64,000 nt of DNA from Hexactinellida sp. DTS-2022 (Eukaryota; Porifera; Hexactinellida), in NCBI GenBank assembly GCA_028753945.1, contig JAPNXP010000009.1, positions 6,557,540 to 6,621,539 of the forward strand, in the 5' to 3' direction. Below, one piece after another: positions 13,501 through 42,432 of this stretch. The position numbers and the translations under genes were made by a program. Each line of letters opens with the position of its first letter. Position 1 is the first letter of the stretch. The notes beneath the pieces are model-generated. The model was not told the DNA's origin and ran no database searches. It saw nothing but the letters and a program-made list of their open reading frames with translations.

Positions 13501-15843
13501 GACGTTGGGACTCAAAATTTATTCTATCAACCAATAACATAATGAAACATTCATACTTTCTATATCTAGACATTCTACAAAGGAGAAACTCGTTAGTATT
13601 CGCTATTTATATATCTACTGTATAACATTGTACGCATTTTGCGTACAATATATAGACGTTGGGATTCAAAATTCATTATATTAACCGATAACATAATGAA
13701 ACATTCATACTTTCAATATCTAGACATTCTACAATGGAGAACCTCGTTAGTATTCGCTATTTATATATCCACTTTATAACATTGTACGCATTTTGCGAAA
13801 AATATATAGACGTTGGGATTCAAAATTCATTATATTAACCGATAACATAATGAAACATTCATACTTTCTATATCTAGACATTCTACAATGGAGAACCTCG
13901 TTAGTATTCGCTATTTATATATCCACTTTATAACATTGTACGCATTTTGCGTACAATATATAGACGTTGGATTCAAAATTTATTATATCAACCAATAACA
14001 TAATGAAACATTCATACTTTCTATATCCCTGACATTCTACAAAGGAGAACCTCGTCAGTATTCGCTATTTATATATCCACTTTATAACATTGTACGCATT
14101 TTGCGTACAATATATAGACGTTGGGATTCAAAATTTATTATTTCAACCGATAACATAATGAAACATTCATACTTTCTATATCTAGACATTCTACAATGGA
14201 GAACCTCGTTAGTATTCGCTATTTATATATCCACTTTATAACATTGTACGCATTTTGCGTACAATATATTGACGTTGGGATTCAAATTAATTATATCAAC
14301 CAATAACATAATGAAACATTCATCATTTCTATATCTAGCCATTCTACAAAGGAGAACCTCGTTAGTATTCGCTATTTATATATCTACTTTATAACATTGT
14401 ACGCATTTTGCGTACAATATATAGACGTAGGGATCCAAATTAATTATATCAAGCAATAACATAATGAAACATTCATACTTTCTATATGTAGGACATTCTA
14501 CAATGGAGAACCTCGTTAGTATTCGCTATTTATATATCTACTTTATAACTTTGTACGCATTTTGCGTACAATATATAGACTTTGGGATTCAAAATTCATT
14601 ATATCAACCAATAACATAATGAAACATTCATCATTTCTATATCTAGCCATTCTACAAAGGAGAACCTCGTTAGTATTCGCTATTTATATATCTACTTTAT
14701 AACATTGTACGCATTTTGCGTACAATATATTGACATTGGGATTCAAAATTAATTATATCAACCAATAACATAATGAAACATTCATACTTTCTATATCTAG
14801 ACATTCTACAAAGGAGAAACTCGTTAGTATTCGCTATTTATATATCTACTGTATAACATTGTACGCATTTTGCGTACAATATATAGACGTTGGGATTCAA
14901 AATTCATTATATTATCCGATAACATAATGAAACATTCATACTTTCAATATCTAGGCATTCTACAAAGGAGAACCTCGTTAGTATTCGCTATTTATATATC
15001 CACTTTATAACATTGTACGCATTTTGCGTACAATATATAGACGTTGGGATTCAAAATTCATTATATTAACCGATAACATAATGAAACATTCATACTTTCT
15101 ATATCTAGACATTCTACAATGGAGAATCTCGTTAGTATTCGCTATTTATATATCCACTTTATAACATTGTACGCATTTTGCGTACAATATATAGACGTTG
15201 GGATTCAAAATTTATTATATCAACCAATAACATAATGAAACATTCATACTTTCTATATGTAGGACATTCTACAATGGAGAAACTCGTTAGTATTCACTAT
15301 TTATATATCCACTGTATAATATTGTACGCATTTTGCGTACAATATTTAGACGTTGGGACTCAAAATTTATTATATCAACCAATAACATAATGAAACATTC
15401 ATACTTTCTATATCTAGACATTCTACAAAGGAGAACCTCGTTAGTATTCGCTATTTATATATCCACTTTATAACATTGTACGCATTTTGCGTACAATATA
15501 TAGACGTTGGGATTCAAAATTTATTATATCAACCAATAACATAATGAAACATTCATACTTTCTATATGTAGGACATTCTACAAAGGAGAAACTCGTTAGT
15601 ATTCACTATTTATATATCCACTGTATAATATTGTACGCATTTTGCGTACAATATATAGACGTTGGGACTCAAAATTTATTATATCAACCAATAACATAAT
15701 GAAACATTCATACTTTCTATGTCCCTTACATTCTACAATGGAGAACCTCGTCAGTATTCGCTATTTATATATCCACTGTATAACATTGTACGCATTTTGC
15801 GTGCAATGTGTAGACTTTGGGATTCAAAATTAATTATCTCAAC

Positions 15844-15998
15844 CAGAGGCGGCGCGGCTTTTGGGGGCCCCCGGGTGATCGACCTACTAGTCCCCTTTGT
15901 CCAGGGCCCCGTGGGACCTGAACTAGGGGCCCCCTTTGTAATCGGTTGAGGGGCCCGCGGGTGAATCACCCGTGCGGGGTGTGCCCGCGCCGCCCATG
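15844..15998 (+). mobile_element. 155-bp GC-rich hAT-type MITE, copy 1
   Basis: A short non-autonomous DNA transposon, very GC-rich against the AT-rich satellite. The ends are CAGAGGCGGCGCGG and, read inward from the other side, CATGGGCGGCGCGG: 14-bp terminal inverted repeats with two mismatches, of the CA-start type common in hAT elements. The left flank 15836-15843 is ATCTCAAC. That octamer reappears (as GTTGAGAT) at 40598-40605 beside copy 2 rather than on this copy's right flank. Satellite orientation switches from plus to minus across this element. It has no coding capacity. Confidence 0.8.
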
Positions 15999-18900
15999 GA
16001 TATAATGAATTTTGAATCCCAAAGTCTATATATTGTACGCAAAATGCGTACAAAGTTATAAAGTAGATATATAAATAGCGAATACTAACGAGGTTCTCCA
16101 TTGTAGAATGTCCTACATATAGAAAGTATGAATGTTTCATTATGTTATTGCTTGATATAATTAATTTGGATCCCTACGTCTATATATTGTACGCAAAATG
16201 CGTACAATGTTATAAAGTAGATATATAAATAGCGAATACTATCGAGGTTCTCCTTTGTAGAATGGCTAGATATAGAAATGATGAATGTTTCATTATGTTA
16301 TTGGTTGATATAATTAATTTGAATCCCAACGTCCATATATTGTACGCAAAATGCGTACAATGTTATAAAGTGGAAATATAAATAGCGAATACTAACGAGG
16401 TTCTCCTTTGTAGAATGTCAGGGATATAGAAAGTATGAATGTTTCATTATGTTATTGGTTGATATAATAAATTTTGAATCCCAACGTCTATATATTGTAC
16501 GCAAAATGCGTACAATGTTATAAAGTGGATATATAAATAGCGAATACTAACGAGGTTCTCCTTTGTAGAATGTCTAGATATAAAAAGTATGAATGTTTCA
16601 TTATGTTATTGGTTGATATAATAAATTTTGAGTCCCAACGTCTATATATTGCACGCAAAATGCGTACAATATTATACAGTGGATATATAAATAGTGAATA
16701 CTAACGAGGTTCTCTATTGTAGAATGTCCTACATATAGAAAGTATGAATGTTTCATTATGTTATTGGTTGATATAATTAATTTGGATCCCAAAGTCTATA
16801 TATTGTACGCAAAATCCCTACAATATTATACAGTAGATATATAAATAGCGAATACTAACGAGGTTCTCCATTGTAGAATGTCCTACATATAGAAAGTATG
16901 AATGTTTCATTATGTTATTGGTTGATACTGTATAATAAAGTTTGAATCCCAACGTCTATATATTGTACGCAAAATGCGTACAATGTTATACTGTGGATAT
17001 ATAAATAGCGAATACTAACGAGGTTCTCCTTTGTAGAATGTCAGGGATATAGAAAGTATGAATGTTTCATTATGTTATTGGTTGATATAATTAATTTTGA
17101 ATCCCAATGTCAATATATTGTACGCAAAATGCGTACAATGTTATAAAGTAGATATATAAATAGCGAATACTAACGAGGTTCTCCTTTGTAGAATGGCTAG
17201 ATATAGAAATGATGAATGTTTCATTATGTTATTGGTTGATATAATGAATTTTGAATCCCAACGTCTATATATTGTTCGCAAAATGCGTACAAACTTATAA
17301 AGTAGATATATAAATAGCGAATACTAACGAGGTTCTCCATTGTAGAATGTCCTACATATAGAAAGTATGAATGTTTCATTATGTTATTGGTTGATATAAT
17401 TAATTTGGATCCCAAAGTCTATATATTGTACGCAAAATGCGTACAATGTTATACAGTGGATATATAAATAGCGAATACTAACGAGGTTCTCCTTTGTAGA
17501 ATGGCTAGATATGGAAAGTATGAATGTTTCATTATGTTATCGGTTAATATAATGAATTTTGAATCCCAAAGTCTATATATTGTACGCAAAATGCGTACAA
17601 TGTTATAAGGTGGATATATAAATAGCGAATACTAACGAGGTTCTCCTTTGTAGAATGGCTAGATATGGAAAGTATGAATGTTTCATTATGTTATCGGTTA
17701 ATATAATGAATTTTGAATCCCAACGTCTATATATTGTACGCAAAATGCGTACAATGTTATAAAGTAGATATATAAATAGCGAATACTAACGAGGTTCTCC
17801 TTTGTAGAATGGCTAGATATAGAAATGATGAATGTTTCATTATGTTATCGGTTGATATAATAAATTTTGAAACCCAACGTCTATATATTGTACGCAAAAT
17901 GCGCACAATATTATAAAGTGGATATATAAATAGTGAATACTAACGAGGTTCTCCATTGTAGAATATCCTACATATAGAAAGTATGAATGTTTCATTATGT
18001 TATTGGTTGATATAATTAATTTGGATCCCAAAGTCTATATATTGTACGCAAAATGCGTACAATGTTATACAGTGGATATATAAATAGCGAATACTGACGA
18101 GGTTCTCCATTGTAGAATGTAAGGGATATAGAAAGTATGAATGTTTCATTATGTTATTGGTTGATATAATTAATTTTGAATCCCAATGTCAATATATTGT
18201 ACGCAAAATGCGTACAATGTTATACAGTGGATATATAAATAGCGAATACTAACGAGTTTCTCCTTTGTAGAATGTCCTACATATAGAAAGTATGATTGTT
18301 TCATTATGTTATTGGTTGAGATAATTAATTTTGAATCCCAAAGTCTATACATTGTACGCAAAATGCGTACAATGTTATACAGTGGATATATAAATAGCGA
18401 ATACTGACGAGGTTCTCCATTGTAGAATGTAAGGGACATAGAAAGTATGAATGTTTCATTATGTTATTGGTTGATATAATAAATTTTGAGTCCCAACGTC
18501 TATATATTGTACGCAAAATGCGTACAATATTATACAGTGGATATATAAATAGTGAATACTAACGAGTTTCTCCATTGTAGAATGTCCTACATATAGAAAG
18601 TATGAATGTTTCATTATGTTATTGGTTGATATAATAAATTTTGAATCCCAACGTCTATATATTGTACGCAAAATGCGTACAATGTTATAAAGTGGATATA
18701 TAAATAGCGAATACTAACGAGGTTCTCCTTTGTAGAATGTCTAGATATAGAAAGTATGAATGTTTCATTATGTTATTGGTTGATATAATAAATTTTGAAT
18801 CTCAAAGTCTATATATTGTACGCAAAATGCGTACAATGTTATAAAGTGGATATATAAATAGCGAATACTAACGAGTTTCTCCTTTGTAGAATGTCCTACA

Positions 18901-21488: not shown

Positions 21489-24400
21489 AGTAACGAGGTT
21501 CTCCATTGTAGAATGTCAGGGATATAGAAAGTATGAATGTTTCATTATGTTATCGGTTAATATAATGAATTTTGAATCCCAACATCTATATATTTTTCGC
21601 AAAATGCGTACAATGTTATAAAGTGGATATATACATAGCGAATACTAACGAGGTTCTCCATTGTAGAATGTCTAGATATTGAAAGTATGAATGTTTCATT
21701 ATGTTATCGGGTAATATAATGAATTTTGAATCCCAACGTCTATATATTGTACGCAAAATGCGTACAATGTTATACAGTAGATATATAAATAGCGAATACT
21801 AACGAGTTTCTCCTTTGTAGAATGTCTAGATATAGAAAGTATGAATGTTTCATTATGTTATTGGTTGATAGAATAAATTTTGAGTCCCAACGTCTATATA
21901 TTGTACGCAAAATGCGTACAATATTATACAGTGGATATATAAATAGTGAATACTAACGAGTTTCAACATTGTAGAATGTCCTACACATAGAAAGTATGAA
22001 TGTTTCATTATGTTATTGGTTGATATAATAAATTTTGAGTCCCAACGTCTATATATTGTACGCAAAATGCGTACAATGTTATAAAGTGGATATATAAATA
22101 GCGAATACTAACGAGGTTCTCCTTTGTAGAATGTCTAGATATAGAAAGTATGAATGTTTCATTATGTTATCGGTTAATATAATGAATTTTGAATCCCAAC
22201 ATCTATATATTTTTCGCAAAATGCGTACAATGTTATAAAGTGGATATATACATAGCGAATACTAACGAGGTTCTCCATTGTAGAATGTCTAGATATTGAA
22301 AGTATGAATGTTTCATTATGTTATCGGTTAATATAATGAATTTTGAATCCCAACGTCTATATATTGTACGCAAAATGCGTACAATGTTACACAGTAGATA
22401 TATAAATAGCGAATACTAACGAGTTTCTCCTTTGTAGAATGTCTAGATATAGAAAGTATGAATGTTTCATTATGTTATTGGTTGATAGAATAAATTTTGA
22501 GTCCCAACGTCTATATATTGTACGCAAAATGCGTACAATATTATACAGTGGATATATAAATAGTGAATACTAACGAGTTTCAACATTGTAGAATGTCCTA
22601 CACATAGAAAGTATGAATGTTTCATTATGTTATTGGTTGATATAATAAATTTTGAGTCCCAACGTCTATATATTGTACGCAAAATGCGTACAATGTTATA
22701 AAGTGGATATATAAATAGCGAATACTAACGAGGTTCTCCTTTGTAGAATGTCTAGATATAGAAAGTATGAATGTTTCATTATGTTATTGGTTGATATAAT
22801 AAATTTGGAATCCCAACGTTTATATATTGTACGCAAAATGTGTACAATGTTATAAAGTGGATATATAAATAGCGAATACTAACGAGGTTCTCCTTTGTAG
22901 AATGTCTAGATATAGAAAGTATGAATGTTTCATTATGTTATTGGTTGATATAATTAATTTTGAATCCCAATGTCAATATATTGTACGCAAAATGCGTACA
23001 ATGTTATAAAGTAGATATATAAATAGCGAATACTAACGAGGTTATCCTTTGTAGAATGGCTAGATATAGAAATTATGAATGTTTCATTATGTTATTGGTT
23101 GATATAATTAATTTTGAATCCCAACGTCAATATATTGTACGCAAAATGCGTACATTGTTATAAAGTAGATATATAAATAGCGAATACTAACGAGGTTCTC
23201 CATTGTAGAATGTCCTACATATAGAAAGTATGAATGTTTCATTATGTTATTGGTTGATATAATTAATTTGGATCCCAAAGTCTATATATTGTACGCAAAA
23301 TGCGTACAATGTTATACAGTGGATATATATATAGCGAATACTAACGAGGTTCTCCATTGTAGAATGTCAGGGATATAGAAAGTATGAATGTTTCATTATG
23401 TTATTGGTTGATATAATTAATTTTGAATCCCAATGTCTATATATTGTACGCAAAATGCGTACAATGTTATAAAGTGGATATATAAATAGCGAATACTAAC
23501 GAGGTTCTCCTTTGTAGAATGTCAGGGATATAGAAAGTATGAATGTTTCATTATGTTATTGGTTGATATAATTAATTTTGAATCCCAACGTCAATATATT
23601 GTACGCAAAATGCGTACAATGTTATACAGTGGATATATAAATAGCGAATACTAACGAGGTTCTCCTTTGTAGAATGTCTAGATATAGAAAGTATGAATGT
23701 TTCATTATGTTATTGGTTGATATAATAAATTTTGAGTCCCAACGTCTATATATTGTACGCAAAATGCGTACAATATTATACAGTGGATATATAAATAGTG
23801 AATACTAACGAGTTTCTCCATTGTAGAATGTCCTACATATAGAAAGTATGAATGTTTCATTATGTTATTGGTTGATATAATAAATTTTGAATCCCAACGT
23901 CTATATATTGTACGCAAAATGCGTACAATGTTATAAAGTGGATATATAAATAGCGAATACTAACGAGATTCTCCATTGTAGAATGTCTAGATATAGAAAG
24001 TATGAATGTTTCATTATGTTATCGGTTAATATAATGAATTTTGAATCCCAACGTCTATATATTGTACGCAAAATGCGTACAATATTATACAGTGGATATA
24101 TAAATAGTGAATACTAACGAGTTTCAACATTGTAGAATGTCCTACACATAGAAAGTATGAATGTTTCATTATGTTATTGGTTGATATAATAAATTTTGAG
24201 TCCCAACGTCTATATATTGTACGCAAAATGCGTACAATGTTATAAAGTGGATATATAAATAGCGAATACTAACGAGGTTCTCCTTTGTAGAATGTCTAGA
24301 TATAGAAAGTATGAATGTTTCATTATGTTATTGGTTGATATAATTAATTTGGATCCCAAAGTCTATATATTGTACGCAAAATGCCTACAATATTATACAG

Positions 24401-24729
24401 TAGATATATAAATAGCGAATACTAACGAGGTTCTCCATTGTAGAATGTCCTACATATAGAAAGTATGAATGTTTCATTATGTTATTGGTTGATATAATAA
24501 ATTTGGAATCCCAACGTTTATATATTGTACGCAAAATGTGTACAATGTTATACTGTGGATATATAAATAGCGAATAGTAACGAGGTTCTCCATTGTAGAA
24601 TGTCAGGGATATAGAAAGTATGAATGTTTCATTATGTTATTGGTTGATATAATTAATTTGGATCCCAAAGTCTATATATTGTACGCAAAATGCGTACAAT
24701 GTTATACAGTGGATATATAAATAGCGAAT
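21489..24729 (-). repeat. 3241-bp higher-order satellite unit, copy 1
   Basis: A 21-monomer block duplicated in tandem with a shift of 3241 bp. Private features repeat in order: TTTTTCGCA dyad variants, the TACACATAG subtype, the AATAGTAACG variant and a TATATATATAGCG monomer (23325 and 26566). The left boundary is set by a single difference, AATAGTAACG against AATACTAACG near 21488 and 24729. Confidence 0.85.
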
Positions 24730-27700
24730 ACTAACGAGGTTCTCCATTGTAGAATGTCAGGGATATAGAAAGTATGAATGTTTCATTATGTTATCGGTTA
24801 ATATAATGAATTTTGAATCCCAACATCTATATATTTTTCGCAAAATGCGTACAATGTTATAAAGTGGATATATACATAGCGAATACTAACGAGGTTCTCC
24901 ATTGTAGAATGTCTAGATATTGAAAGTATGAATGTTTCATTATGTTATCGGGTAATATAATGAATTTTGAATCCCAACGTCTATATATTGTACGCAAAAT
25001 GCGTACAATGTTATACAGTAGATATATAAATAGCGAATACTAACGAGTTTCTCCTTTGTAGAATGTCTAGATATAGAAAGTATGAATGTTTCATTATGTT
25101 ATTGGTTGATAGAATAAATTTTGAGTCCCAACGTCTATATATTGTACGCAAAATGCGTACAATATTATACAGTGGATATATAAATAGTGAATACTAACGA
25201 GTTTCAACATTGTAGAATGTCCTACACATAGAAAGTATGAATGTTTCATTATGTTATTGGTTGATATAATAAATTTTGAGTCCCAACGTCTATATATTGT
25301 ACGCAAAATGCGTACAATGTTATAAAGTGGATATATAAATAGCGAATACTAACGAGGTTCTCCTTTGTAGAATGTCTAGATATAGAAAGTATGAATGTTT
25401 CATTATGTTATCGGTTAATATAATGAATTTTGAATCCCAACATCTATATATTTTTCGCAAAATGCGTACAATGTTATAAAGTGGATATATACATAGCGAA
25501 TACTAACGAGGTTCTCCATTGTAGAATGTCTAGATATTGAAAGTATGAATGTTTCATTATGTTATCGGTTAATATAATGAATTTTGAATCCCAACGTCTA
25601 TATATTGTACGCAAAATGCGTACAATGTTACACAGTAGATATATAAATAGCGAATACTAACGAGTTTCTCCTTTGTAGAATGTCTAGATATAGAAAGTAT
25701 GAATGTTTCATTATGTTATTGGTTGATAGAATAAATTTTGAGTCCCAACGTCTATATATTGTACGCAAAATGCGTACAATATTATACAGTGGATATATAA
25801 ATAGTGAATACTAACGAGTTTCAACATTGTAGAATGTCCTACACATAGAAAGTATGAATGTTTCATTATGTTATTGGTTGATATAATAAATTTTGAGTCC
25901 CAACGTCTATATATTGTACGCAAAATGCGTACAATGTTATAAAGTGGATATATAAATAGCGAATACTAACGAGGTTCTCCTTTGTAGAATGTCTAGATAT
26001 AGAAAGTATGAATGTTTCATTATGTTATTGGTTGATATAATAAATTTGGAATCCCAACGTTTATATATTGTACGCAAAATGTGTACAATGTTATAAAGTG
26101 GATATATAAATAGCGAATACTAACGAGGTTCTCCTTTGTAGAATGTCTAGATATAGAAAGTATGAATGTTTCATTATGTTATTGGTTGATATAATTAATT
26201 TTGAATCCCAATGTCAATATATTGTACGCAAAATGCGTACAATGTTATAAAGTAGATATATAAATAGCGAATACTAACGAGGTTATCCTTTGTAGAATGG
26301 CTAGATATAGAAATTATGAATGTTTCATTATGTTATTGGTTGATATAATTAATTTTGAATCCCAACGTCAATATATTGTACGCAAAATGCGTACATTGTT
26401 ATAAAGTAGATATATAAATAGCGAATACTAACGAGGTTCTCCATTGTAGAATGTCCTACATATAGAAAGTATGAATGTTTCATTATGTTATTGGTTGATA
26501 TAATTAATTTGGATCCCAAAGTCTATATATTGTACGCAAAATGCGTACAATGTTATACAGTGGATATATATATAGCGAATACTAACGAGGTTCTCCATTG
26601 TAGAATGTCAGGGATATAGAAAGTATGAATGTTTCATTATGTTATTGGTTGATATAATTAATTTTGAATCCCAATGTCTATATATTGTACGCAAAATGCG
26701 TACAATGTTATAAAGTGGATATATAAATAGCGAATACTAACGAGGTTCTCCTTTGTAGAATGTCAGGGATATAGAAAGTATGAATGTTTCATTATGTTAT
26801 TGGTTGATATAATTAATTTTGAATCCCAACGTCAATATATTGTACGCAAAATGCGTACAATGTTATACAGTGGATATATAAATAGCGAATACTAACGAGG
26901 TTCTCCTTTGTAGAATGTCTAGATATAGAAAGTATGAATGTTTCATTATGTTATTGGTTGATATAATAAATTTTGAGTCCCAACGTCTATATATTGTACG
27001 CAAAATGCGTACAATATTATACAGTGGATATATAAATAGTGAATACTAACGAGTTTCTCCATTGTAGAATGTCCTACATATAGAAAGTATGAATGTTTCA
27101 TTATGTTATTGGTTGATATAATAAATTTTGAATCCCAACGTCTATATATTGTACGCAAAATGCGTACAATGTTATAAAGTGGATATATAAATAGCGAATA
27201 CTAACGAGATTCTCCATTGTAGAATGTCTAGATATAGAAAGTATGAATGTTTCATTATGTTATCGGTTAATATAATGAATTTTGAATCCCAACGTCTATA
27301 TATTGTACGCAAAATGCGTACAATATTATACAGTGGATATATAAATAGTGAATACTAACGAGTTTCAACATTGTAGAATGTCCTACACATAGAAAGTATG
27401 AATGTTTCATTATGTTATTGGTTGATATAATAAATTTTGAGTCCCAACGTCTATATATTGTACGCAAAATGCGTACAATGTTATAAAGTGGATATATAAA
27501 TAGCGAATACTAACGAGGTTCTCCTTTGTAGAATGTCTAGATATAGAAAGTATGAATGTTTCATTATGTTATTGGTTGATATAATTAATTTGGATCCCAA
27601 AGTCTATATATTGTACGCAAAATGCCTACAATATTATACAGTAGATATATAAATAGCGAATACTAACGAGGTTCTCCATTGTAGAATGTCCTACATATAG

Positions 27701-27970
27701 AAAGTATGAATGTTTCATTATGTTATTGGTTGATATAATAAATTTGGAATCCCAACGTTTATATATTGTACGCAAAATGTGTACAATGTTATACTGTGGA
27801 TATATAAATAGCGAATAGTAACGAGGTTCTCCATTGTAGAATGTCAGGGATATAGAAAGTATGAATGTTTCATTATGTTATTGGTTGATATAATTAATTT
27901 GGATCCCAAAGTCTATATATTGTACGCAAAATGCGTACAATGTTATACAGTGGATATATAAATAGCGAAT
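24730..27970 (-). repeat. 3241-bp higher-order satellite unit, copy 2
   Basis: The adjacent tandem copy of 21489-24729. Similarity runs on to about 28015, where AAGTATGATT replaces AAGTATGAAT. The two copies look nearly identical over more than 3 kb, which means recent unequal exchange or an assembly duplication. Confidence 0.85.
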
Positions 27971-29850
27971 ACTAACGAGGTTCTCCATTGTAGAATGTCA
28001 GGGATATAGAAAGTATGATTGTTTCATTATGTTATTGGTTGATATAATTAATTTTGAATCCCAATGTCTATATATTGTACGCAAAATGCGTACAATGTTA
28101 TAAAGTGGATATATAAATAGCGAATACTAACGAGGTTCTCCTTTGTAGAATGTCAGGGATATAGAAAGTATGAATGTTTCATTATGTTATTGGTTGATAT
28201 AATTAATTTTGAATCCCAACGTCAATATATTGTACGCAAAATGCGTACAATGTTATACAGTGGATATATAAATAGCGAATACTAACGAGGTTCTCCATTG
28301 TAGAATGTCTAGATATAGAAAGTATGAATGTTTCATTATGTTATTGGTTGAGATAATTAATTTTGAATCCCAAAGTCTATACATTGTACGCAAAATGCAT
28401 ACAATGTTATACAGTGGATATATAAATAGCGAATACTGACGAGGTTCTCCATTGTAGAATGTAAGGGACATAGAAAGTATGAATGTTTCATTATGTTATT
28501 GGTTGATATAATAAATTTTGAGTCCCAACGTCTATATATTGTACGCAAAATGCGTACAATATTATACAGTGGATATATAAATAGTGAATACTAACGAGTT
28601 TCTCCTTTGTAGAATGTCTAGATATAGAAAGTATGATTGTTTCATTATGTTATTGGTTGATATAATAAATTTTGAATCCCAACGTCTATATATTGTACGC
28701 AAAATGCGTACAATGTTATAAAGTGGATATATAAATAGCGAATACTAACGAGGTTCTCCATTGTAGAATGTCTAGATATAGAAAGTATGAATGTTTCATT
28801 ATGTTATCGGTTAATATAATGAATTTTGAATCCCAACATCTATATATTTTTCGCAAAATGCGTACAATGTTATAAAGTGGATATATACATAGCGAATACT
28901 AACGAGGTTCTCCATTGTAGAATGTCAGGGATATAGAAAGTATGATTGTTTCATTATGTTATTGGTTGATATAATTAATTTTGAATCCCAATGTCTATAT
29001 ATTGTACGCAAAATGCGTACAATGTTATAAAGTGGATATATAAATAGCGAATACTAACGAGGTTCTCCTTTGTAGAATGTCAGGGATATAGAAAGTATGA
29101 ATGTTTCATTATGTTATTGGTTGATATAATTAATTTTGAATCCCAACGTCAATATATTGTACGCAAAATGCGTACAATGTTATACAGTGGATATATAAAT
29201 AGCGAATACTAACGAGGTTCTCCATTGTAGAATGTCTAGATATAGAAAGTATGAATGTTTCATTATGTTATTGGTTGAGATAATTAATTTTGAATCCCAA
29301 AGTCTATACATTGTACGCAAAATGCGTACAATGTTATACAGTGGATATATAAATAGCGAATACTGACGAGGTTCTCCATTGTAGAATGTAAGGGACATAG
29401 AAAGTATGAATGTTTCATTATGTTATTGGTTGATATAATAAATTTTGAGTCCCAACGTCTATATATTGTACGCAAAATGCGTACAATATTATACAGTGGA
29501 TATATAAATAGTGAATACTAACGAGTTTCTCCTTTGTAGAATGTCTAGATATAGAAAGTATGATTGTTTCATTATGTTATTGGTTGATATAATAAATTTT
29601 GAATCCCAACGTCTATATATTGTACGCAAAATGCGTACAATGTTATAAAGTGGATATATAAATAGCGAATACTAACGAGGTTCTCCATTGTAGAATGTCT
29701 AGATATAGAAAGTATGAATGTTTCATTATGTTATCGGTTAATATAATGAATTTTGAATCCCAACATCTATATATTTTTCGCAAAATGCGTACAATGTTAT
29801 AAAGTGGATATATACATAGCGAATACTAACGAGGTTCTCCATTGTAGAAT
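27962..29850 (-). repeat. Tandem pair of 927-bp (6-monomer) satellite blocks
   Basis: 27962-28923 matches 28889-29850 at a shift of 927 bp. One difference seen is GCATACA at about 28397 against GCGTACA at about 29324. Both copies carry the GACATAG/TAAGGG subtype and a monomer with TATACATTG in place of TATATATTG. Confidence 0.8.
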
Positions 29851-32847
29851 GTCTAGATATTGAAAGTATGAATGTTTCATTATGTTATCGGATAATATAA
29901 TGAATTTTGAATCCCAACGTCTATATATTGTACGCAAAATGCGTACAATGTTATACAGTAGATATATAAATAGCGAATACTAACGAGTTTCTCCTTTGTA
30001 GAATGTCTAGATATAGAAAGTATGAATGTTTCATTATGTTATTGGTTGATAGAATAAATTTTGAGTCCCAACGTCTATATATTGTACGCAAAATGCGTAC
30101 AATATTATACAGTGGATATATAAATAGTGAATACTAACGAGTTTCAACATTGTAGAATGTCCTACACATAGAAAGTATGAATGTTTCATTATGTTATTGG
30201 TTGATATAATAAATTTTGAGTCCCAACGTCTATATATTGTACGCAAAATGCGTACAATGTTATAAAGTGGATATATAAATAGCGAATACTAACGAGGTTC
30301 TCCTTTGTAGAATGTCTAGATATAGAAAGTATGAATGTTTCATTATGTTATTGGTTGATATAATTAATTTGGATCCCAAAGTCTATATATTGTACGCAAA
30401 ATGCCTACAATATTATACAGTAGATATATAAATAGCGAATACTAACGAGGTTCTCCATTGTAGAATGTCCTACATATAGAAAGTATGAATGTTTCATTAT
30501 GTTATTGGTTGATATAATAAATTTGGAATCCCAACGTGTATATTGTACGCAAAATGTGTACAATGTTATACTGTGGATATATAAATAGCGAATAGTAACG
30601 AGGTTCTCCATTGTAGAATGTCAGGGATATAGAAAGTATGAATGTTTCATTATGTTATTGGTTGATATAATTAATTTTGAATCCCAATGTCAATATATTG
30701 TACGCAAAATGCGTACAATGTTATAAAGTAGATATATAAATAGCGAATACTAACGAGGTTCTCCTTTGTAGAATGGCTAGATATAGAAAGTATGAATGTT
30801 TCATTATGTTATTGGTTGATATAATTAATTTTGAATCCCAACGTTAATATATTGTACGCAAAATGCGTACATTGTTATAAAGTAGATATATAAATAGCGA
30901 ATACTAACGAGGTTCTCCATTGTAGAATGTCCTACATATAGAAAGTATGAATGTTTCATTATGTTATTGGTTGATATAATTAATTTGGATCCCAAAGTCT
31001 ATATATTGTACGCAAAATGCGTACAATGTTATACAGTGGATATATAAATAGCGAATACTAACGAGGTTCTCCTTTGTAGAATGTCAGGGATATAGAAAGT
31101 ATGAATGTTTCATTATGTTATTGGTTGATATAATAAATTTTGAATCCAACGTCTATATATTGTACGCAAAATGCGTACAATGTTATAAAGTGGATATATA
31201 AATAGCGAATACTAACGAGGTTCTCCATTGTAGAATGTCTAGATATAGAAAGTATGAATGTTTCATTATGTTATCGGTTAATATAATGAATTTTGAATCC
31301 CAACATCTATATATTTTTCGCAAAATGCGTACAATGTTATAAAGTGGATATATAAATAGCGAATACTAACGAGGTTCTCCATTGTAGAATGTCTAGATAT
31401 TGAAAGTATGAATGTTTCATTATGTTATCGGATAATATAATGAATTTTGAATCCCAACGTCTATATATTGTACGCAAAATGCGTACAATGTTATACAGTA
31501 GATATATAAATAGCGAATACTAACGAGTTTCTCCTTTGTAGAATGTCTAGATATAGAAAGTATGAATGTTTCATTATGTTATTGGTTGATAGAATAAATT
31601 TTGAGTCCCAACGTCTATATATTGTACGCAAAATGCGTACAATATTATACAGTGGATATATAAATAGTGAATACTAACGAGTTTCAACATTGTAGAATGT
31701 CCTACACATAGAAAGTATGAATGTTTCATTATGTTATTGGTTGATATAATAAATTTTGAGTCCCAACGTCTATATATTGTACGCAAAATGCGTACAATGT
31801 TATAAAGTGGATATATAAATAGCGAATACTAACGAGGTTCTCCTTTGTAGAATGTCTAGATATAGAAAGTATGAATGTTTCATTATGTTATTGGTTGATA
31901 TAATTAATTTGGATCCCAAAGTCTATATATTGTACGCAAAATGCCTACAATATTATACAGTAGATATATAAATAGCGAATACTAACGAGGTTCTCCATTG
32001 TAGAATGTCCTACATATAGAAAGTATGAATGTTTCATTATGTTATTGGTTGATATAATAAATTTGGAATCCCAACGTGTATATTGTACGCAAAATGTGTA
32101 CAATGTTATACTGTGGATATATAAATAGCGAATAGTAACGAGGTTCTCCATTGTAGAATGTCAGGGATATAGAAAGTATGAATGTTTCATTATGTTATTG
32201 GTTGATATAATTAATTTTGAATCCCAATGTCAATATATTGTACGCAAAATGCGTACAATGTTATAAAGTAGATATATAAATAGCGAATACTAACGAGGTT
32301 CTCCTTTGTAGAATGGCTAGATATAGAAAGTATGAATGTTTCATTATGTTATTGGTTGATATAATTAATTTTGAATCCCAACGTTAATATATTGTACGCA
32401 AAATGCGTACATTGTTATAAAGTAGATATATAAATAGCGAATACTAACGAGGTTCTCCATTGTAGAATGTCCTACATATAGAAAGTATGAATGTTTCATT
32501 ATGTTATTGGTTGATATAATTAATTTGGATCCCAAAGTCTATATATTGTACGCAAAATGCGTACAATGTTATACAGTGGATATATAAATAGCGAATACTA
32601 ACGAGGTTCTCCTTTGTAGAATGTCAGGGATATAGAAAGTATGAATGTTTCATTATGTTATTGGTTGATATAATAAATTTTGAATCCAACGTCTATATAT
32701 TGTACGCAAAATGCGTACAATGTTATAAAGTGGATATATAAATAGCGAATACTAACGAGGTTCTCCATTGTAGAATGTCTAGATATAGAAAGTATGAATG
32801 TTTCATTATGTTATCGGTTAATATAATGAATTTTGAATCCCAACATC
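29816..32847 (-). repeat. Tandem pair of 1540-bp (10-monomer) satellite blocks
   Basis: 29816-31355 is followed by a matching block from 31356, with shared private variants such as the shortened CAACGTGTATATTG monomer at about 30533 and 32073. The second copy is interrupted by the 248-bp transposon at 32848, and the pattern resumes after it (TTTTTCGCA at 33112, TCTAGATATTG at 33188). The transposon therefore arrived after or during this amplification. Confidence 0.8.
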
Positions 32848-33095
32848 CATGGGCGCCGAAACTCTCAAACGCTAGGGGGGGTGTGACGTAATATTCAAAT
32901 GTCAAAGTTAAAAAAACAATGCGTATGGGGATAAAATCAATGTTGGATGGGGATAATTGTATAGATATATACATCATCAACTGAAATTTATACAAACTCA
33001 TTATGGAATCATTAATTTTCCATTTTTCTTCCCTGACTTCTCCTCGGCCAGGGGGGGTGACACCCTCCCTGACCCCCCCACTTTCGGCGCCTATG
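32848..33095. mobile_element. 248-bp non-autonomous hAT-type element in the satellite
   Basis: The termini are CATGGGCGCCGAAA and, inverted, CATAGGCGCCGAAA: 14 bp with one mismatch. The exact 8-bp target duplication CCAACATC lies at 32840-32847 and 33096-33103. Removing the element and one octamer restores a normal monomer (CCCAACATCTATATATTTTT). An 8-bp duplication with CA-start termini points to hAT. The interior has G/C homopolymer runs near both ends and no transposase frame. Long frames crossing it are satellite plus element read-through. Confidence 0.88.
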
Positions 33096-36000
33096 CCAAC
33101 ATCTATATATTTTTCGCAAAATGCGTACAATGTTATAAAGTGGATATATACATAGCGAATACTAACGAGGTTCTCCATTGTAGAATGTCTAGATATTGAA
33201 AGTATGAATGTTTCATTATGTTATCGGATAATATAATGAATTTTGAATCCCAACGTTATATATTGTACGCAAAATGCGTACAATGTTATACAGTAGATAT
33301 ATAAATAGCGAATACTAACGAGGTTCTCCATTGTAGAATGTCCTACATATAGAAAGTATGAATGTTTCATTATGTTATTGGTTGATATAATTAATTTGGA
33401 TCCCAAAGTCTATATATTGTACGCAAAATGCGTACAATGTTATACAGTGGATATATAAATAGCGAATACTAACGAGGTTCTCCATTGTAGAATGTCAGGG
33501 ATATAGAAAGTATGAATGTTTCATTATGTTATTGGTTGATATAATTAATTTTGAATCCCAATGTCAATATATTGTACGCAAAATGCGTACAATGTTATAC
33601 AGTGGATATATAAATAGCGAATACTAACGAGTTTCTCCTTTGTAGAATGTCCTACATATGGAAAGTATGATTGTTTCATCATGTTATTGGTTGAGATAAT
33701 TAATTTTGAATCCCAAAGTCTATACATTGTACGCAAAATGCGTACAATGTTATACAGTGGATATATAAATAGCGAATACTGACGAGGTTCTCCATTGTAG
33801 AATGTAAGGGACATAGAAAGTATGAATGTTTCATTATGTTATTGGTTGATATAATAAATTTTGAGTCCCAACGTCTATATATTGTACGCAAAATGCGTAC
33901 AATATTATACAGTGGATATATAAATAGTGAATACTAACGAGTTTCTCCTTTGTAGAATGTCTAGATATAGAAAGTATGAATGTTTCATTATGTTATTGGT
34001 TGATATAATAAATTTTGAATCCCAACGTCTATATATTGTACGCAAAATGCGTACAATGTTATAAAGTGGATATATAAATAGCGAATACTAACGAGGTTCT
34101 CCTTTGTAGAATGTCTAGATATAGAAAGTATGAATGTTTCATTATGTTATTGGTTGATATAATAAATTTTGAGTCCCAACGTCTATATATTGCACGCAAA
34201 ATGCGTACAATATTATACAGTGGATATATAAATAGTGAATACTAACGAGTTTCTCCATTGTAGAATGTCCTACATATAGAAAGTATGAATGTTTCAATAT
34301 GTTATTGGTTGATATAATAAATTTTGAATATCAACGTCTATATATTGTACGCAAAATGCGTACAATGTTATAAAGTAGATATATAAATGGCGAATACTAA
34401 CGAGGTTCTCCATTGTAGAATGTCAGGGATATAGAAAGTATGAATGTTTCATTATGTTATTGGTTGATATAATTAATTTTGAATCCCAATGTCAATATAT
34501 TGTACGCAAAATGCGTACAATGTTATAAAGTAGATATATAAATAGCGAATACTAACGAGGTTCTCCTTTGTAGAATGTCTAGATATAGAAAGTATGAATG
34601 TTTCATTATGTTATTGGTTGATATAATAAATTTTGAGTCCCAACGTCTATATATTGCACGCAAAATGCGTACAATATTATACAGTGGATATATAAATAGT
34701 GAATACTAACGAGTTTCTCCATTGTAGAATGTCCTACATATAGAAAGTATGAATGTTTCAATATGTTATTGGTTGATATAATAAATTTTGAATCCCAACG
34801 TCTATATATTGTACGCAAAATGCGTACAATGTTATAAAGTAGATATATAAATGGCGAATACTAACGAGGTTCTCCATTGTAGAATGTCAGGGATATAGAA
34901 AGTATGAATGTTTCATTATGTTATTGGTTGATATAATTAATTTGGATCCCAAAGTCTATATATTGTACGCAAAATGCCTACAATATTATACAGTAGATAT
35001 ATAAATAGCGAATACTAACGAGGTTCTCCATTGTAGAATGTCCTACATATAGAAAGTATGAATGTTTCATTATGTTATTGGTTGATATAATAAATTTGGA
35101 ATCCCAACGTTTATATATTGTACGCAAAATGTGTACAATGTTATACTGTGGATATATAAATAGCGAATAGTAACGAGGTTCTCCATTGTAGAATGTCAGG
35201 GATATAGAAAGTATGAATGTTTCATTATGTTATTGGTTGATATAATTAATTTGGATCCCAAAGTCTATATATTGTACGCAAAATGCGTACAATGTTATAC
35301 AGTGGATATATAAATAGCGAATACTAACGAGGTTCTCCATTGTAGAATGTCAGGGATATAGAAAGTATGAATGTTTCATTATGTTATTGGTTGATATAAT
35401 TAATTTTGAATCCCAATGTCAATATATTGCACGCAAAATGCGTACAATGTTATACAGTGGATATATAAATAGCGAATACTAACGAGTTTCTCCTTTGTAG
35501 AATGTCCTACATATAGAAAGTATGATTGTTTCATTATGTTATTGGTTGAGATAATTAATTTTGAATCCCAAAGTCTATACATTGTACGCAAAATGCGTAC
35601 AATGTTATACAGTGGATATATAAATAGCGAATACTGACGAGGTTCTCCATTGTAGAATGTAAGGGACATAGAAAGTATGAATGTTTCATTATGTTATTGG
35701 TTGATATAATAAATTTTGAGTCCCAACGTCTATATATTGTACGCAAAATGCGTACAATATTATACAGTGGATATATAAATAGTGAATACTAACGAGTTTC
35801 TCCTTTGTAGAATGTCTAGATATAGAAAGTATGAATGTTTCATTATGTTATTGGTTGATATAATTAATTTTGAATCCCAACGTCTATATATTGTACGCAA
35901 AATGCGTACAATGTTATAAAGTGGATATATAAATAGCGAATACTAACGAGGTTCTCCTTTGTAGAATGTCTAGATATAGAAAGTATGAATGTTTCATTAT

Positions 36001-37711
36001 GTTATTGGTTGATATAATAAATTTTGAGTCCCAACGTCTATATATTGCACGCAAAATGCGTACAATATTATACAGTGGATATATAAATAGTGAATACTAG
36101 CGAGTTTCTCCATTGTAGAATGTCCTACATATAGAAAGTATGAATGTTTCAATATGTTATTGGTTGATATAATAAATTTTGAATCCCAACGTCTATATAT
36201 TGTACGCAAAATGCGTACAATGTTATAAAGTAGATATATAAATGGCGAATACTAACGAGGTTCTCCATTGTAGAATGTCAGGGATATAGAAAGTATGAAT
36301 GTTTCATTATGTTATTGGTTGATATAATTAATTTTGAATCCCAATGTCAATATATTGTACGCAAAATGCGTACAATGTTATAAAGTAGATATATAAATTG
36401 CGAATACTAACGAGGTTCTCCTTTGTAGAATGTCTAGATATAGAAAGTATGAAAGTTTCATTATGTTATTGGTTGATATAATAAATTTTGAGTCCCAACG
36501 TCTATATATTGTACGCAAAATGCGTACAATATTATACAGTGGATATATAAATAGTGAATACTAACGAGTTTCTCCATTGTAGAATGTCCTACATATAGAA
36601 AGTATGAATGTTTCATTATGTTATTGGTTGATATAATAAATTTTGAATCCCAACGTCTATATATTGTACGCAAAATGCGTACAATGTTATAAAGTGGATA
36701 TATAAATAGCGAATACTAACGAGGTTCTCCATTGTAGAATGTCTAGATATAGAAAGTATGAATGTTTCATTATGTTATCGGTTAATATAATGAATTTTGA
36801 ATCCCAACATCTATATATTTTTCGCAAAATGCGTACAATGTTATAAAGTGGATATACACATAGCGAATACTAACGAGGTTCTCCATTGTAGAATGTCTAG
36901 ATATTGAAAGTATGAATGTTTCATTATGTTATCGGATAATATAATGAATTTTGAATCCCAACGTCTATATATTGTACGCAAAATGCGTACAATGTTATAA
37001 AGTGGATATATAAATAGCGAATACTAACGAGATTCTCCATTGTAGAATGTCTAGATATAGAAAGTATGAATGTTTCATTATGTTATCGGTTAATATAATG
37101 AATTTTGAATCCCAACGTCTATATATTGTACGCAAAATGCGTACAATGTTATAAAGTGGATATATAAATAGCGAATACTAACGAGGTTCTCCTTTGTAGA
37201 ATGTCTAGATATTGAAAGTATGAATGTTTCATTATGTTATTGGTTGATATAATAAATTTTGAATCCAACGTCTATATATTGTACGCAAAATGCGTACAAT
37301 GTTATAAAGTGGATATATAAATAGCGAATACTAACGAGGTTCTCCATTGTAGAATGTCTAGATATAGAAAGTATGAATGTTTCATTATGTTATCGGTTAA
37401 TATAATGAATTTTGAATCCCAACATCTATATATTTTTCGCAAAATGCGTACAATGTTATAAAGTGGATATACACATAGCGAATACTAACGAGGTTCTCCA
37501 TTGTAGAATGTCTAGATATTGAAAGTATGAATGTTTCATTATGTTATCGGATAATATAATGAATTTTGAATCCCAACGTCTATATATTGTACGCAAAATG
37601 CGTACAATGTTATACAGTAGATATATAAATAGCGAATACTAACGAGTTTCTCCTTTGTAGAATGTCTAGATATAGAAAGTATGAATGTTTCATTATGTTA
37701 TTGGTTGATAG
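33096..37711 (-). repeat. 154-bp satellite array, reversed arm, part 2
   Basis: About 30 monomers in the same reversed orientation between two transposon insertions. It starts with the right target duplication of the 248-bp element and ends with GTTGATAG (37704-37711), the left target duplication of the 570-bp element. A monomer around 33240 lacks one base (CAACGTTATATATTG) relative to its neighbours. Confidence 0.96.
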
Positions 37712-38281
37712 CAGGGTTGGGTTCAAGTACAATTTACTTAAGTACTTCTGTAATTAAGTACATTTTCTGAGTACTTGTACTTGTACTTAAGTACTTTCAC
37801 CATTTTTCCGTTGTACTTGTACTTGTACTTAATTACTTTCCTCATTTTTCTAAAGTACTTGCACTTGTACTTGAGTACTTGTTACTCGTGACTTTTTTAT
37901 CATTCAATATATTTCCAACACACATCATTGATGTTCCTCAAATCCCATCTCATATAAAGTAGTGTTACTTAATACTTAGTATACTAGGAATTGTGTTCGT
38001 GTCAATGACTACTGCTAAATCAATTAAATAGATTTGGATGATACTATATAAACTATGTATTTAGCAATTTCTACTATTAGTACGAGAGATTTATCATAAG
38101 AGCTTGGGAAGTACTTGTACTTGTACTTGTACTTAAGTATTTTCCTAATTTTTTCATTGTACTTGTACTTGTACTTAAGTACTTTAATTTACCTGTACTT
38201 GTACTTGTATTGTACTTGAATATCTGAAAAGTAGTAGTACTTGTACTTAAGTACTTTCAAATGTACTTGAACCCAACCCTG
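37712..38281. mobile_element. 570-bp non-autonomous hAT-type element with TACTTG-rich ends
   Basis: A perfect 20-bp terminal inverted repeat CAGGGTTGGGTTCAAGTACA at both ends and an exact 8-bp target duplication GTTGATAG at 37704-37711 and 38282-38289. The terminus matches the CAGGGTTGGG type typical of hAT elements. Sub-terminal regions on both sides are packed with TACTTGTACTT and AAGTACTT iterations (about 37725-37885 and 38105-38270), a usual arrangement for transposase-binding arrays. The middle is plain AT-rich sequence with no transposase frame. Confidence 0.92.
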
Positions 38282-40605
38282 GTTGATAGAATAAATTTTG
38301 AGTCCCAACGTCTATATATTGTACGCAAAATGCGTACAATATTATACAGTGGATATATAAATAGTGAATACTAACGAGTTTCAACATTGTAGAATGTCCT
38401 ACACATAGAAAGTATGAATGTTTCATTATGTTATTGGTTGATATAATAAATTTTGAGTCCCAACGTCTATATATTGTACGCAAAATGCGTACAATGTTAT
38501 AAAGTGGATATATAAATAGCGAATACTAACGAGGTTCTCCTTTGTAGAATGTCTAGATATAGAAAGTATGAATGTTTCATTATGTTATTGGTTGATATAA
38601 TTAATTTGGATCCCAAAGTCTATATATTGTACGCAAAATGCCTACAATATTATACAGTAGATATATAAATAGCGAATACTAACGAGGTTCTCCATTGTAG
38701 AATGTCCTACATATAGAAAGTATGAATGTTTCATTATGTTATTGGTTGATATAATAAATTTGGAATCCCAACGTTTATATATTGTACGCAAAATGTGTAC
38801 AATGTTATACTGTGGATATATAAATAGCGAATAGTAACGAGGTTCTCCATTGTAGAATGTCAGGGATATAGAAAGTATGAATGTTTCATTATGTTATTGG
38901 TTGATATAATTAATTTTGAATCCCAATGTCAATATATTGTACGCAAAATGCGTACAATGTTATAAAGTAGATATATAAATAGCGAATACTAACGAGGTTC
39001 TCCTTTGTAGAATGGCTAGATATAGAAATGATGAATGTTTCATTATGTTATTGGTTGATATAATGAATTTTGAATCCCAAAGTCTATATATTGTACGCAA
39101 AATGCGTACAAAGTTATAAAGTAGATATATAAATAGCGAATACTAACGAGGTTCTCCATTGTAGAATGTCCTACATATAGAAAGTATGAATGTTTCATTA
39201 TGTTATTGCTTGATATAATTAATTTGGATCCCTACGTCTATATATTGTACGCAAAATGCGTACATTGTTATAAAGTAGATATATAAATAGCGAATACTAA
39301 CGAGGTTCTCCATTGTAGAATGTCCTACATATAGAAAGTATGAATGTTTCATTATGTTATTGGTTGATATAATTAATTTTGAATCCCAATGTCAATATAT
39401 TGTACGCAAAATGCGTACAATGTTATAAAGTGGATATATAAATAGCGAATACTAACGAGGTTCTCCTTTGTAGAATGTCAGGGATATAGAAAGTATGAAT
39501 GTTTCATTATGTTATTGGTTGATATAATTAATTTTGAATCCCAACGTCAATATATTGTACGCAAAATGCGTACAATGTTATACAGTGGATATATAAATAG
39601 CGAATACTAACGAGGTTCTCCATTGTAGAATGTCTAGATATAGAAAGTATGAATGTTTCATTATGTTATTGGTTGATATAATTAATTTGAATCCCAACGT
39701 CCATATATTGTACGCAAAATGCGTACAATGTTATACAGTGGATATATAAAATAGCGAATACTAACGAGGTTCTCCTTTGTATAATGTCTAGATATAAAAA
39801 GTATGAATGTTTCATTATGTTATCGGTTAATATAATGAATTTTGAATCCCAACGTCTATATATTGTACGCAAAATGCGTACAATGTTATAAAGTGGATAT
39901 ATAAATAGCGAATACTGACGAGGTTCTCCATTGTAGAATGTCCTACATATAGAAAGTATGAATGTTTCATTATGTTATTGGTTGATATAATTAATTTGGA
40001 TCCCAAAGTCTATATATTGTACGCAAAATGAGTACAATGTTATAAAGTGGATATATAAATAGCGAATACTAACGAGGTTCTCCTTTGTAGAATGTCTAGA
40101 TATAGAAATTATGAATGTTTCATTATGTTATTGGTTGATATAATTAATTTTGAATCCCAACGTCAATATATTGTACGCAAAATGCGTACATTGTTATAAA
40201 GTAGATATATAAATAGCGAATACTAACGAGGTTCTCCATTGTAGAATGTCCTACATATAGAAAGTATGAATGTTTCATTATGTTATTGGTTGATATAATT
40301 AATTTGGATCCCAAAGTCTATATATTGTACGCAAAATGCGTACAATGTTATACAGTGGATATATAAATAGCGAATACTAACGAGGTTCTCCATTGTAGAA
40401 TGTCAGGGATATAGAAAGTATGAATGTTTCATTATGTTATTGGTTGATATAATTAATTTTGAATCCCAATGTCAATATATTGTACGCAAAATGCGTACAA
40501 TGTTATACAGTGGATATATAAATAGCGAATACTAACGAGTTTCTCCTTTGTAGAATGTCCTACATATAGAAAGTATGATTGTTTCATTATGTTATTGGTT
40601 GAGAT
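38282..40605 (-). repeat. 154-bp satellite array, reversed arm, part 3
   Basis: About 15 monomers in reverse orientation, ending mid-monomer at GGTTGAGAT against copy 2 of the 155-bp MITE. The last monomer is the rare ATGATTGTTTC...GGTTGAGAT subtype, also found complete near 18275-18360, 33640-33740 and 35505-35590. This identifies which monomer type the MITE originally entered. Confidence 0.95.
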
Positions 40606-40760
40606 CATGGGCGGCGCGGCCGCACCCCGCACGGGTGATTCACCCGCGGGCCCCTCAACCGATTACAAAGGGGGCCCCTAGTTCAGGTCCCACGGGGCCC
40701 TGGACAAAGGGGACTAGTAGGTCGATCACCCGGGGGCCCCCAAAAGCCGCGCCGCCTCTG
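40606..40760 (-). mobile_element. 155-bp GC-rich hAT-type MITE, copy 2 (inverted)
   Basis: The reverse complement of 15844-15998 with only two differences in 155 bp, both in GCGGCCGCACC against GCGGGCACACC near one end. The inner flank GTTGAGAT (40598-40605) is the complement of ATCTCAAC beside copy 1. The outer flank (TAGGAGGT) is not satellite and shows no matching octamer. The two copies form a 24.6-kb-spaced inverted pair at the ends of the reversed satellite arm. A frame that reads through it is not a gene. Confidence 0.82.
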
Positions 40761-40820
40761 TAGGAGGTTACTGTCCTCTTGAGTGTATAGCAAAACGGAG
40801 TGCGGCGGAGAGATAGAGAG
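40761..40820. other. Short unique spacer beside the satellite edge
   Basis: Sixty bases between the MITE and the foldback. They include a purine-rich GAGAGATAGAGAGAG stretch that continues into the foldback arm. No gene or RNA feature is recognised. Confidence 0.5.
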
Positions 40821-41073
40821 AGACATCAGTTGAAGATTAAAATAATTATTAAATCCGGCGTATATATACTAATCGTGTCTGTCACAGGTGTTTGGGTCTG
40901 TATCTGTAGACAAAGGTTGCAGGTTTTTAACTTGCAAGCTAATTAATTACTACACTCAATATCCGCTGTGTATGTTTTGTACTTTGCAGGTTTGAACACC
41001 TGTGACATACTCGATTAGTATATATACGCCGGATTTAATAATAATTTTAATCTTCAATTGATGCCTGATGTCT
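40821..41073. repeat. Foldback (inverted repeat) with 72/79-bp arms
   Basis: The left arm 40821-40892 and right arm 40995-41073 are inverted copies. They share GAAGATTAAAAT, ATTAAATCCGGCG, TATATATACTAATCG and GTCACAGGTGTT with few mismatches and one 7-base indel near the outer end. The spacer is about 102 bp. No clear target duplication flanks it. It may be a MITE or foldback remnant of unknown family, or a stable hairpin transcript. Confidence 0.75.
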
Positions 41074-41101
41074 CGCTCTCACCTCGTTCCACGTTCCACG
41101 T

Positions 41102-41505
41102 TCCATTATCGCTCAGAGGGTACCAAATTGGGTACCCTCGTGTCCATTGCAATTTGCTAGTGCTGCGCCCCTTCTCTCAACTGATTGGGATCCATAAGGT
41201 GTAGGGAGCAACTTGCGGAGGTTGCGAACTACGCTTTATGGTGAAACTTCAGTTGGGGAAAGGGGCGTCCGACAGTACTACGATTATAAATTTGGGAGAG
41301 TACACCAACTTGGGTATATCTCACTATTCATTCCATTGGGCTGGTGCTGTCCCCTGCTTCTTGGCTGGCTTTTGAACCTCGATGAGTGGCAATCGGCTTG
41401 CGGAGGCCGAACGTTGCTTGTTGGGGGGAGATTCCAGTGATGAGTAGGGGGTCCGCCGGCACCGGCCCTTCGTTTGCATCTTGAACTCTGCGGTCTAGAA
41501 GTTCT
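41102..41505. repeat. Direct repeat 1 of a structured, unidentified 405-bp unit
   Basis: This recurs at 42026-42432 with a shift of 924-927 bp and only scattered substitutions. It contains a perfect small hairpin (GAGGGTACC, AAATTG, GGTACCCTC). It also holds a long three-tier stem: 41166-41183 pairs with 41250-41267 (18 bp including G-U pairs, one C-A mismatch), 41192-41204 with 41229-41241 (13 bp), and GCAAC with GTTGC around an 8-base loop TTGCGGAG. A second hairpin at 41393-41410 (TCGGC/GCCGA) has the same loop. No coding frame is convincing. It may be a non-coding RNA gene pair or the terminal repeats of a mobile element. Confidence 0.7.
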
Positions 41506-42025: not shown

Positions 42026-42432
42026 TTCATTATCGCTCAGAGGGTACCAAATTGGGTACCCTCATGTCCATTGCAATTTGCTAGTGCTGCGCCCCTTTTC
42101 TCAACTGATTGGGATCCATAAGGTGTAGGGAGCAACTTGCGGAGGTTGCGAACTACGCTTTATGGTGAAACTTCAGTTGGGGAAAGGGGCGTCCGACAGT
42201 ACTGCGGTTATAAATTTGGGAGAATATACTAACTTGGGTATATCTCACTATTCATTCCATTGGGCTGGTGTTGTCCCCTGCTTCTTGGCTGGCTTTTGAA
42301 CCTCGATGAGTGGCAATCGGCTTGCGGAGGCCGAGCGTTGCTTGTTGGGGGGAGATTGCAGTGATGAGTAGGGGGTCCGCCGGCACCGGCCCTTCGTTTG
42401 CATCTTTAACTCCTCTGCGGTCTAGAAGTTCT
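42026..42432. repeat. Direct repeat 2 of the structured 405-bp unit
   Basis: The second copy of 41102-41505, retaining the outer, middle and top stems. A C-to-T change in the outer stem (CCCCTTTTC against CCCCTTCTC) turns a C-A mismatch of copy 1 into a T-A pair. Both TTGCGGAG loops are kept. The shared right boundary is TCTAGAAGTTCT. The change is consistent with selection on structure but a single change is weak evidence. Confidence 0.7.

Follow-up and report, generated by a model that had tools for sequence, protein, structure and literature searches.

Probable inversion of a 24.6-kb satellite block bounded by inverted copies of a 155-bp transposon in a hexactinellid sponge

In a 64,000-nucleotide stretch of the assembly of Hexactinellida sp. 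DTS-2022 (GCA_028753945.1, contig JAPNXP010000009.1, positions 6,557,540 to 6,621,539 of the forward strand; hereafter the window), two oppositely oriented copies of a 155-bp non-autonomous DNA transposon, which we call E, bound a satellite block whose polarity is opposite to that of the array on its left. Given a correct assembly, the arrangement of these sequences makes it very probable that E inverted a 24.6-kb stretch of what had been a single-polarity array. As the cause we favour one-step reversed-ends (alternative) transposition, to which we assign, on grounds of parsimony, a probability of about one half. The window, which contains no N, consists of 40 kb of ~154-bp satellite followed by a 12.6-kb island of compact genes and then a 212-bp satellite, and all tests of E and the satellite were made within it. 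The features on which the argument rests are these (window coordinates, strand):

1-15843, minus: left satellite array (A), monomer ~154 bp, uniform polarity (Tandem Repeats Finder (TRF) and anchor counts)
15836-15843, plus: ATCTCAAC, half of the split 8-bp target duplication (flank comparison)
15844-15998, plus: E copy 1, 155-bp non-autonomous DNA transposon, terminal inverted repeats (TIRs) CAGAGGCGGCGCGGC / CATGGGCGGCGCGGG matching at 12/15 (sequence comparison)
15999-16006, plus: octamer GATATAAT (t1 in the model) on the inner side of copy 1, lacking a duplication partner; 2/8 versus the left flank of copy 1, 0/8 versus the outer flank of copy 2
15999-40605, plus: satellite block X, 24,607 bp, opposite polarity, holding two further simple transposon insertions (anchor counts, GC skew)
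18315-18322, plus: GTTGAGAT at the best of the empty (unoccupied paralogous) sites; further empty sites at 33690 and 35545 (flank matching)
40598-40605, plus: GTTGAGAT, the other half of the duplication, on the inner side of copy 2 (flank comparison)
40606-40760, minus: E copy 2, 155 bp, inverted, 3' TIR versus 5' TIR 13/15 (sequence comparison)
40761-40768, plus: TAGGAGGT (t2 in the model), flanking copy 2 on its outer side, where non-satellite DNA begins; a single plus-strand occurrence in the window, 4/8 versus the inner flank of copy 2

Polarity switch and split target duplication

TRF reported a period of 154 bp and 102.8 copies for positions 1-15845. Polarity was scored with two 30-bp anchors taken from different parts of the monomer. 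Forward and reverse counts were 0/102 and 0/103 in the left array, 152/0 and 154/0 in block X, and 0/0 in 40761-64000, so that the polarity flips without exception among the counted anchors; GC skew changes sign at 16000. An earlier sequence-only reading had put the flip at 15844-15998 and the end of the reversed stretch at 40605, coordinates that proved exact to the base. It had also described the same 155-bp element at both ends of the block, in opposite orientation and with two differences. Comparison of the copies agrees with this, the differences falling at element positions 139 and 141 (98.7% identity). The ends of E read CAGAGGCGGCGCGGC and, in copy 2, CATGGGCGGCGCGGC, with ...GGG instead in copy 1. 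As single-stranded DNA, copy 1 is predicted to fold so that the structure closes on its tips, at -41.6 kcal/mol versus a mean of -33.2 for shuffled sequences (z -2.73; 3 of 200 shuffles folded equally well). No further copy of E was found in the window at a blastn E value of 1. An exact 24-base pattern from E had no match in viral and prokaryote contigs, and an exact-pattern scan for the satellite in viral contigs likewise returned none.

Neither copy of E is flanked by a duplication of its own. In element orientation, copy 1 has ATCTCAAC on its left and GATATAAT on its right, which agree at 2/8 positions, and copy 2 has ACCTCCTA on its left and ATCTCAAC on its right, which agree at 4/8. When the left flank of copy 1 is paired with the right flank of copy 2 the match is 8/8: as the earlier reading had held, the octamer left of copy 1 has its partner on the inner side of copy 2, and ATCTCAAC and GTTGAGAT are exact reverse complements. 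What that reading overlooked is the reciprocal swapped pair, ATTATATC / TAGGAGGT, which matches at 0/8. On the plus strand ATCTCAAC occurs once in the window and GTTGAGAT eight times. Among the alleles at the corresponding register of the monomer, GTTGAGAT is uncommon: it is present in none of the 102 left-array monomers and in 7 of the 152 block monomers. The two octamer copies adjoin two different ends of E, the 5' end of copy 1 and the 3' end of copy 2, complementary ends such as a transposition requires, and these presumed active ends form the better TIR pair (13/15 versus 12/15).

Block X also holds two other insertions, which served as internal controls (no strand assigned):

32848-33095: 248-bp TIR element (CATGGGCGCCGAAA / CATAGGCGCCGAAA) with an intact 8-bp duplication, CCAACATC
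37712-38281: 570-bp TIR element (CAGGGTTGGGTTCAAGTA at both ends) with an intact 8-bp duplication, GTTGATAG, in the same monomer register as the target of E

Each is flanked on both sides by its own perfect duplication. Readable duplications can therefore persist around ordinary insertions in this array, and E is exceptional.

Two other accounts of the junctions were rejected. Independent insertion of two copies at an older polarity switch should have left each with its own duplication, where 2/8 and 4/8 were found. Plain breakage unrelated to E fails because both breakpoints lie exactly at the ends of E and the target is duplicated.

Restored junction and empty sites

Joining the two flanks that carry the octamer gave continuous satellite with the octamer present once. 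We matched 146 bp from each side, leaving the octamer out, against 252 candidate sites. The block-side flank matched the sites at 18315, 35545 and 33690 with 0, 1 and 2 edits, the next site requiring 6. The left-array flank matched 18315, 29274, 33690 and 35545 with 2 edits each and 28347 with 3, the next site requiring 7. All of these closely matching sites carry GTTGAGAT. The sequence-only reading had pointed to one rare monomer subtype seen whole near 18275-18360 and had stated that the block, once re-inverted, shows a simple insertion carrying an 8-bp duplication. The match at 18315 bears out the first point, with more copies of the subtype at 33690 and 35545, and the re-inverted sequence, in agreement with the unoccupied paralogous sites, bears out the second.

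Compared with the 18315 locus, the joined flanks are 98-100% identical per 100 alignment columns from about -310 to +490 (~800 bp). Beyond this, identity is 88-96% on the right, and the left side shows two 94% blocks before the alignment breaks into gaps. Over 4 kb the register of 35545 ranks first (94.7%) and that of 18315 fourth (94.3%), with two other registers between them. As this longer comparison shows no preference for the empty sites, the empty-site evidence is local.

The chance level of such a match was assessed by several resampling schemes. When one flank was swapped for that of a random site, the observed score was equalled in 5/150 and 2/150 draws. In a coarser test on whole monomers, random in-frame joins reached the observed block identity in 86/1925, 51/1896 and 83/1854 cases with two, three and four monomers a side; with one end held fixed the corresponding counts were 5 and 6 of 241, 7 and 2 of 236, and 9 and 6 of 231. 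Many blocks of the array are duplicated, which keeps these chance probabilities modest. Truly adjacent pairs scored at least as well in 57%, 49% and 47% of 243, 239 and 235 cases, respectively. By this measure, which about half of the adjacent pairs reach, the restored junction resembles normal, uninterrupted satellite. The case is strengthened by the octamers, which overlap exactly over 8 bp and in register, an agreement with an estimated chance of ~1 in 154 if the phase of insertion is free; it may not be, as another transposon used the same register.

hAT elements have the tip consensus YARNG and the target preference nTnnnnAn. For E, the 8-bp target duplication is read from ATCTCAAC, which matches at 8/8 after re-inversion and stands once, as the octamer, in the three empty paralogous sites. 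The 5' tip, CAGAG, fits the consensus; the 3' tip, CATGG, has T at the third place, and the TIR matches at 13/15 or 12/15. The target octamer GTTGAGAT, read by eye, fits the preference. E is thus likely to be a hAT-type miniature inverted-repeat transposable element (MITE) with an atypical 3' tip. The label 'hAT MITE' given to it earlier is supported by the length of the duplication and by the fit of both the 5' tip and the target octamer. It is likely rather than proven, as the window yielded no transposase and the 3' tip departs from the consensus. P-superfamily elements too make target duplications of 8 bp. Those of Galileo are 7 bp (PMC2775673).

Origin of the inversion

Reversed-ends transposition would have started from two directly oriented E copies, of which one lay in the satellite close to its edge and the other in the neighbouring unique DNA. 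Transposase supplied in trans would pair the two facing ends, the 3' end of one copy and the 5' end of the other, and the DNA between them would be lost. The paired ends would then insert 24.6 kb away at GTTGAGAT, making a fresh 8-bp duplication. Since the opposite end of each copy would remain joined to the chromosome, the satellite lying between the donor and target sites would be flipped, and satellite would be fused to unique DNA across E. What we observe has this form: there is an element at each breakpoint in opposite orientation, of the split duplication one half adjoins a 5' end of E and the other a 3' end, and the reciprocal flanks do not match (0/8), although it is an assumption that each copy formerly had an intact duplication of its own. 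Reversed-ends transposition predicts in a single step that one flank pair is exchanged, that the other is unrelated and that unique DNA stands beside copy 2. In the Galileo study, ends of two copies at separate sites are described as producing, by aberrant transposition, an inversion together with a deletion or duplication, and unmatched reciprocal flanks are expected when DNA between two separate insertions is lost (case D, Figure S1 legend; PMC2775673). The maize Ac/fAc inversions show such a loss (PMC8225341).

The flanks bear directly on homologous exchange. According to the same source, when two insertions undergo ectopic recombination both duplications are exchanged and the resulting copies are chimeric (Delprat 2009, PMC2775673). 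Here one pair matches at 8/8 and the other at 0/8, so the double exchange expected of two intact insertions fails, which argues against recombination in that form. Non-allelic homologous recombination (NAHR) could instead have acted between two copies, one simply inserted at GTTGAGAT, the other inverted and already located, with no duplication of its own, where satellite meets unique DNA. It would give the same final structure as that observed, its substrates would be inverted copies of 98.7% identity, and NAHR has been argued to underlie a Galileo inversion in Drosophila buzzatii (PMC2775673) as well as inversions of cod whose breakpoints are rich in hAT MITEs (PMC12368964). However, the 0/8 pair obliges it to add an extra insertion and an extra rearrangement, and the homology available is only 155 bp. 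We regard it as a genuine contender that is less probable than reversed-ends transposition. The earlier reading had proposed inversion by recombination between, or aberrant transposition of, the two MITEs; the proposal is supported, and the unmatched reciprocal pair favours either the latter or recombination involving a copy that already lacked a duplication.

A hybrid element insertion would have brought together at GTTGAGAT the ends of a single E carried by sister chromatids or by homologues. It predicts E at both ends of the inversion and, at the new site, a duplication split in two (PMC2775673, Figure S1 legend, case A). It also predicts initially identical copies, where two differences are seen, and matching reciprocal flanks, where 0/8 is seen, and it requires a donor copy already without a duplication; we judge it improbable. 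We consider it very improbable that the block was flipped by assembly between the inverted 155-bp repeats, the true chromosome then having a simple E insertion within the satellite and another E where the satellite ends. In favour of this, assembly of satellites is difficult, a flip may occur at inverted repeats, and long exact duplications (3,287 bp, 21491-24777 = 24732-28018) mark the region as demanding. Against it, any read that allowed 40 kb of 154-bp satellite to be assembled would be far longer than a 155-bp repeat.

Several observations weigh against reversed-ends transposition. Its final structure is identical to that of recombination with a duplication-less copy, so that parsimony alone separates the two, and an assembly artefact of the kind just described would leave the same split duplication. 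The donor-side octamers GATATAAT and TAGGAGGT do not fit the hAT target preference. The break at GATATAAT is offset by 3 bp from the register of the GTTGAGAT target, and a small deletion there is possible. The decay of similarity between block and left array with distance is neutral (rho -0.11 in the present order, -0.10 when re-inverted). For the 930-bp flank inside copy 1 (15999-16928), the six best listed of 241 long matches fall in the left array, a result demanded by no model considered. No transposase or intact parent element of E was found within the window.

Going further, we put forward, tentatively and at a little under even odds, that one reversed-ends transposition event involving this tiny non-autonomous element flipped 24.6 kb of satellite, removed the old edge of the array and fused satellite directly to the gene island.

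Sequence context and comparison with known systems

Two different transposons targeted the same monomer register, at 37704-37711 (GTTGATAG) and 40598-40605 (GTTGAGAT), and a third target, CCAACATC (32840-32847), begins 23 bp further along the monomer; the satellite may contain an insertion hotspot. A small irregularity in one monomer (16922-16940, TTGATACTGTATAATAAAG) falls at the register of the transposon targets and is possibly an excision scar. The exact 3,287-bp repeat has an offset of 3,241 bp (~21 monomers), and further exact blocks pair 29816-31307 with 31356-32847 and 1-1643 with 2928-4570, the latter cut by the window edge; these reflect either recent segmental duplication or an effect of assembly. 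The consensus monomer of 15999-40605 contains a 9-bp dyad, TTGTACGCA-AAA-TGCGTACAA, a possible protein-binding site.

The compact gene island occupies 12.6 kb (40761-53391) between the 154-bp and 212-bp satellite arrays, the latter running from 53392 to the window end with 99% matches. Five of the six open reading frames (ORFs) submitted had Pfam matches (MFS/sugar transporter, EF-hand, SPRY, Nanos-type zinc finger and ASH/CFAP65-like Ig domains), and the ORF at 44805-46025 had none. The Nanos-type gene is a single ORF of 206 amino acids. The window is eukaryotic, and its genes suggest an animal-like genome. Just outside E copy 2 lie a foldback-like inverted repeat (40821-41066, 74% identity) and a 413-bp direct repeat (41096-41505 / 42020-42432, 96% identity). 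An Rfam search at gathering thresholds returned no matches, to these repeats or elsewhere.

VANDAL elements are MULEs and so belong to another superfamily than hAT elements. In Arabidopsis, rearrangement by alternative transposition has been attributed, as here, to the ends of neighbouring DNA transposons, and the VANDAL5-linked heterochromatic knob of chromosome 4 is, as cited there, likewise an inversion; in contrast to our case the two VANDAL21 elements are arranged head to head, and the knob rearrangement is a paracentric inversion in which one end went into a distal gene (PMC12312487).

Maize Ac/fAc, of the hAT superfamily, offers a close parallel. Reversed-ends transposition there leaves one element inside the inversion and the other just outside it. 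As in our window, there is an element at each breakpoint and the new target is found duplicated where the new junctions formed; as in our model, DNA between the elements is lost and one end of each stays in place. The maize system differs in that its progenitor allele is known and it is active, whereas here progenitor and transposase are inferred, and the present case involves a 155-bp non-autonomous element and a flipped satellite array (PMC8225341). Galileo inversion 2z3 of Drosophila buzzatii resembles ours in having opposite copies at the breakpoints, displaced duplications and other insertions (later ones in 2z3) that keep their own duplications; in 2z3, however, both duplications were exchanged and the copies are chimeric, whereas here only one pair matches (PMC2775673). 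In Atlantic cod, hAT MITEs again stand at inversion breakpoints in an animal, although those inversions are large-scale and accompanied by tandem MITE accumulations (PMC12368964). Neither 'target site duplication' nor 'TSD' occurs in the main text of the cod paper. In the titles and abstract openings of the literature searched, we found no description of a reversed-ends inversion inside a satellite array, which does not prove that none exists.

The class of mechanism is thus known from flies and maize, with hAT MITEs proposed in cod, and the present case is an unusually legible natural example inside a satellite array. In such arrays the repeats flanking a polarity switch look alike, which makes its breakpoints difficult to read. 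Here the subtypes of the monomer provide unoccupied reference sites in the same array, which gives the breakpoint at base level and narrows the mechanism. The combination of a split duplication with a subtype-matched empty site is an approach transferable to other satellite arrays in long-read assemblies. If the proposed event is correct, alternative transposition would be a route to polarity switches and to sharp boundaries of satellite arrays.

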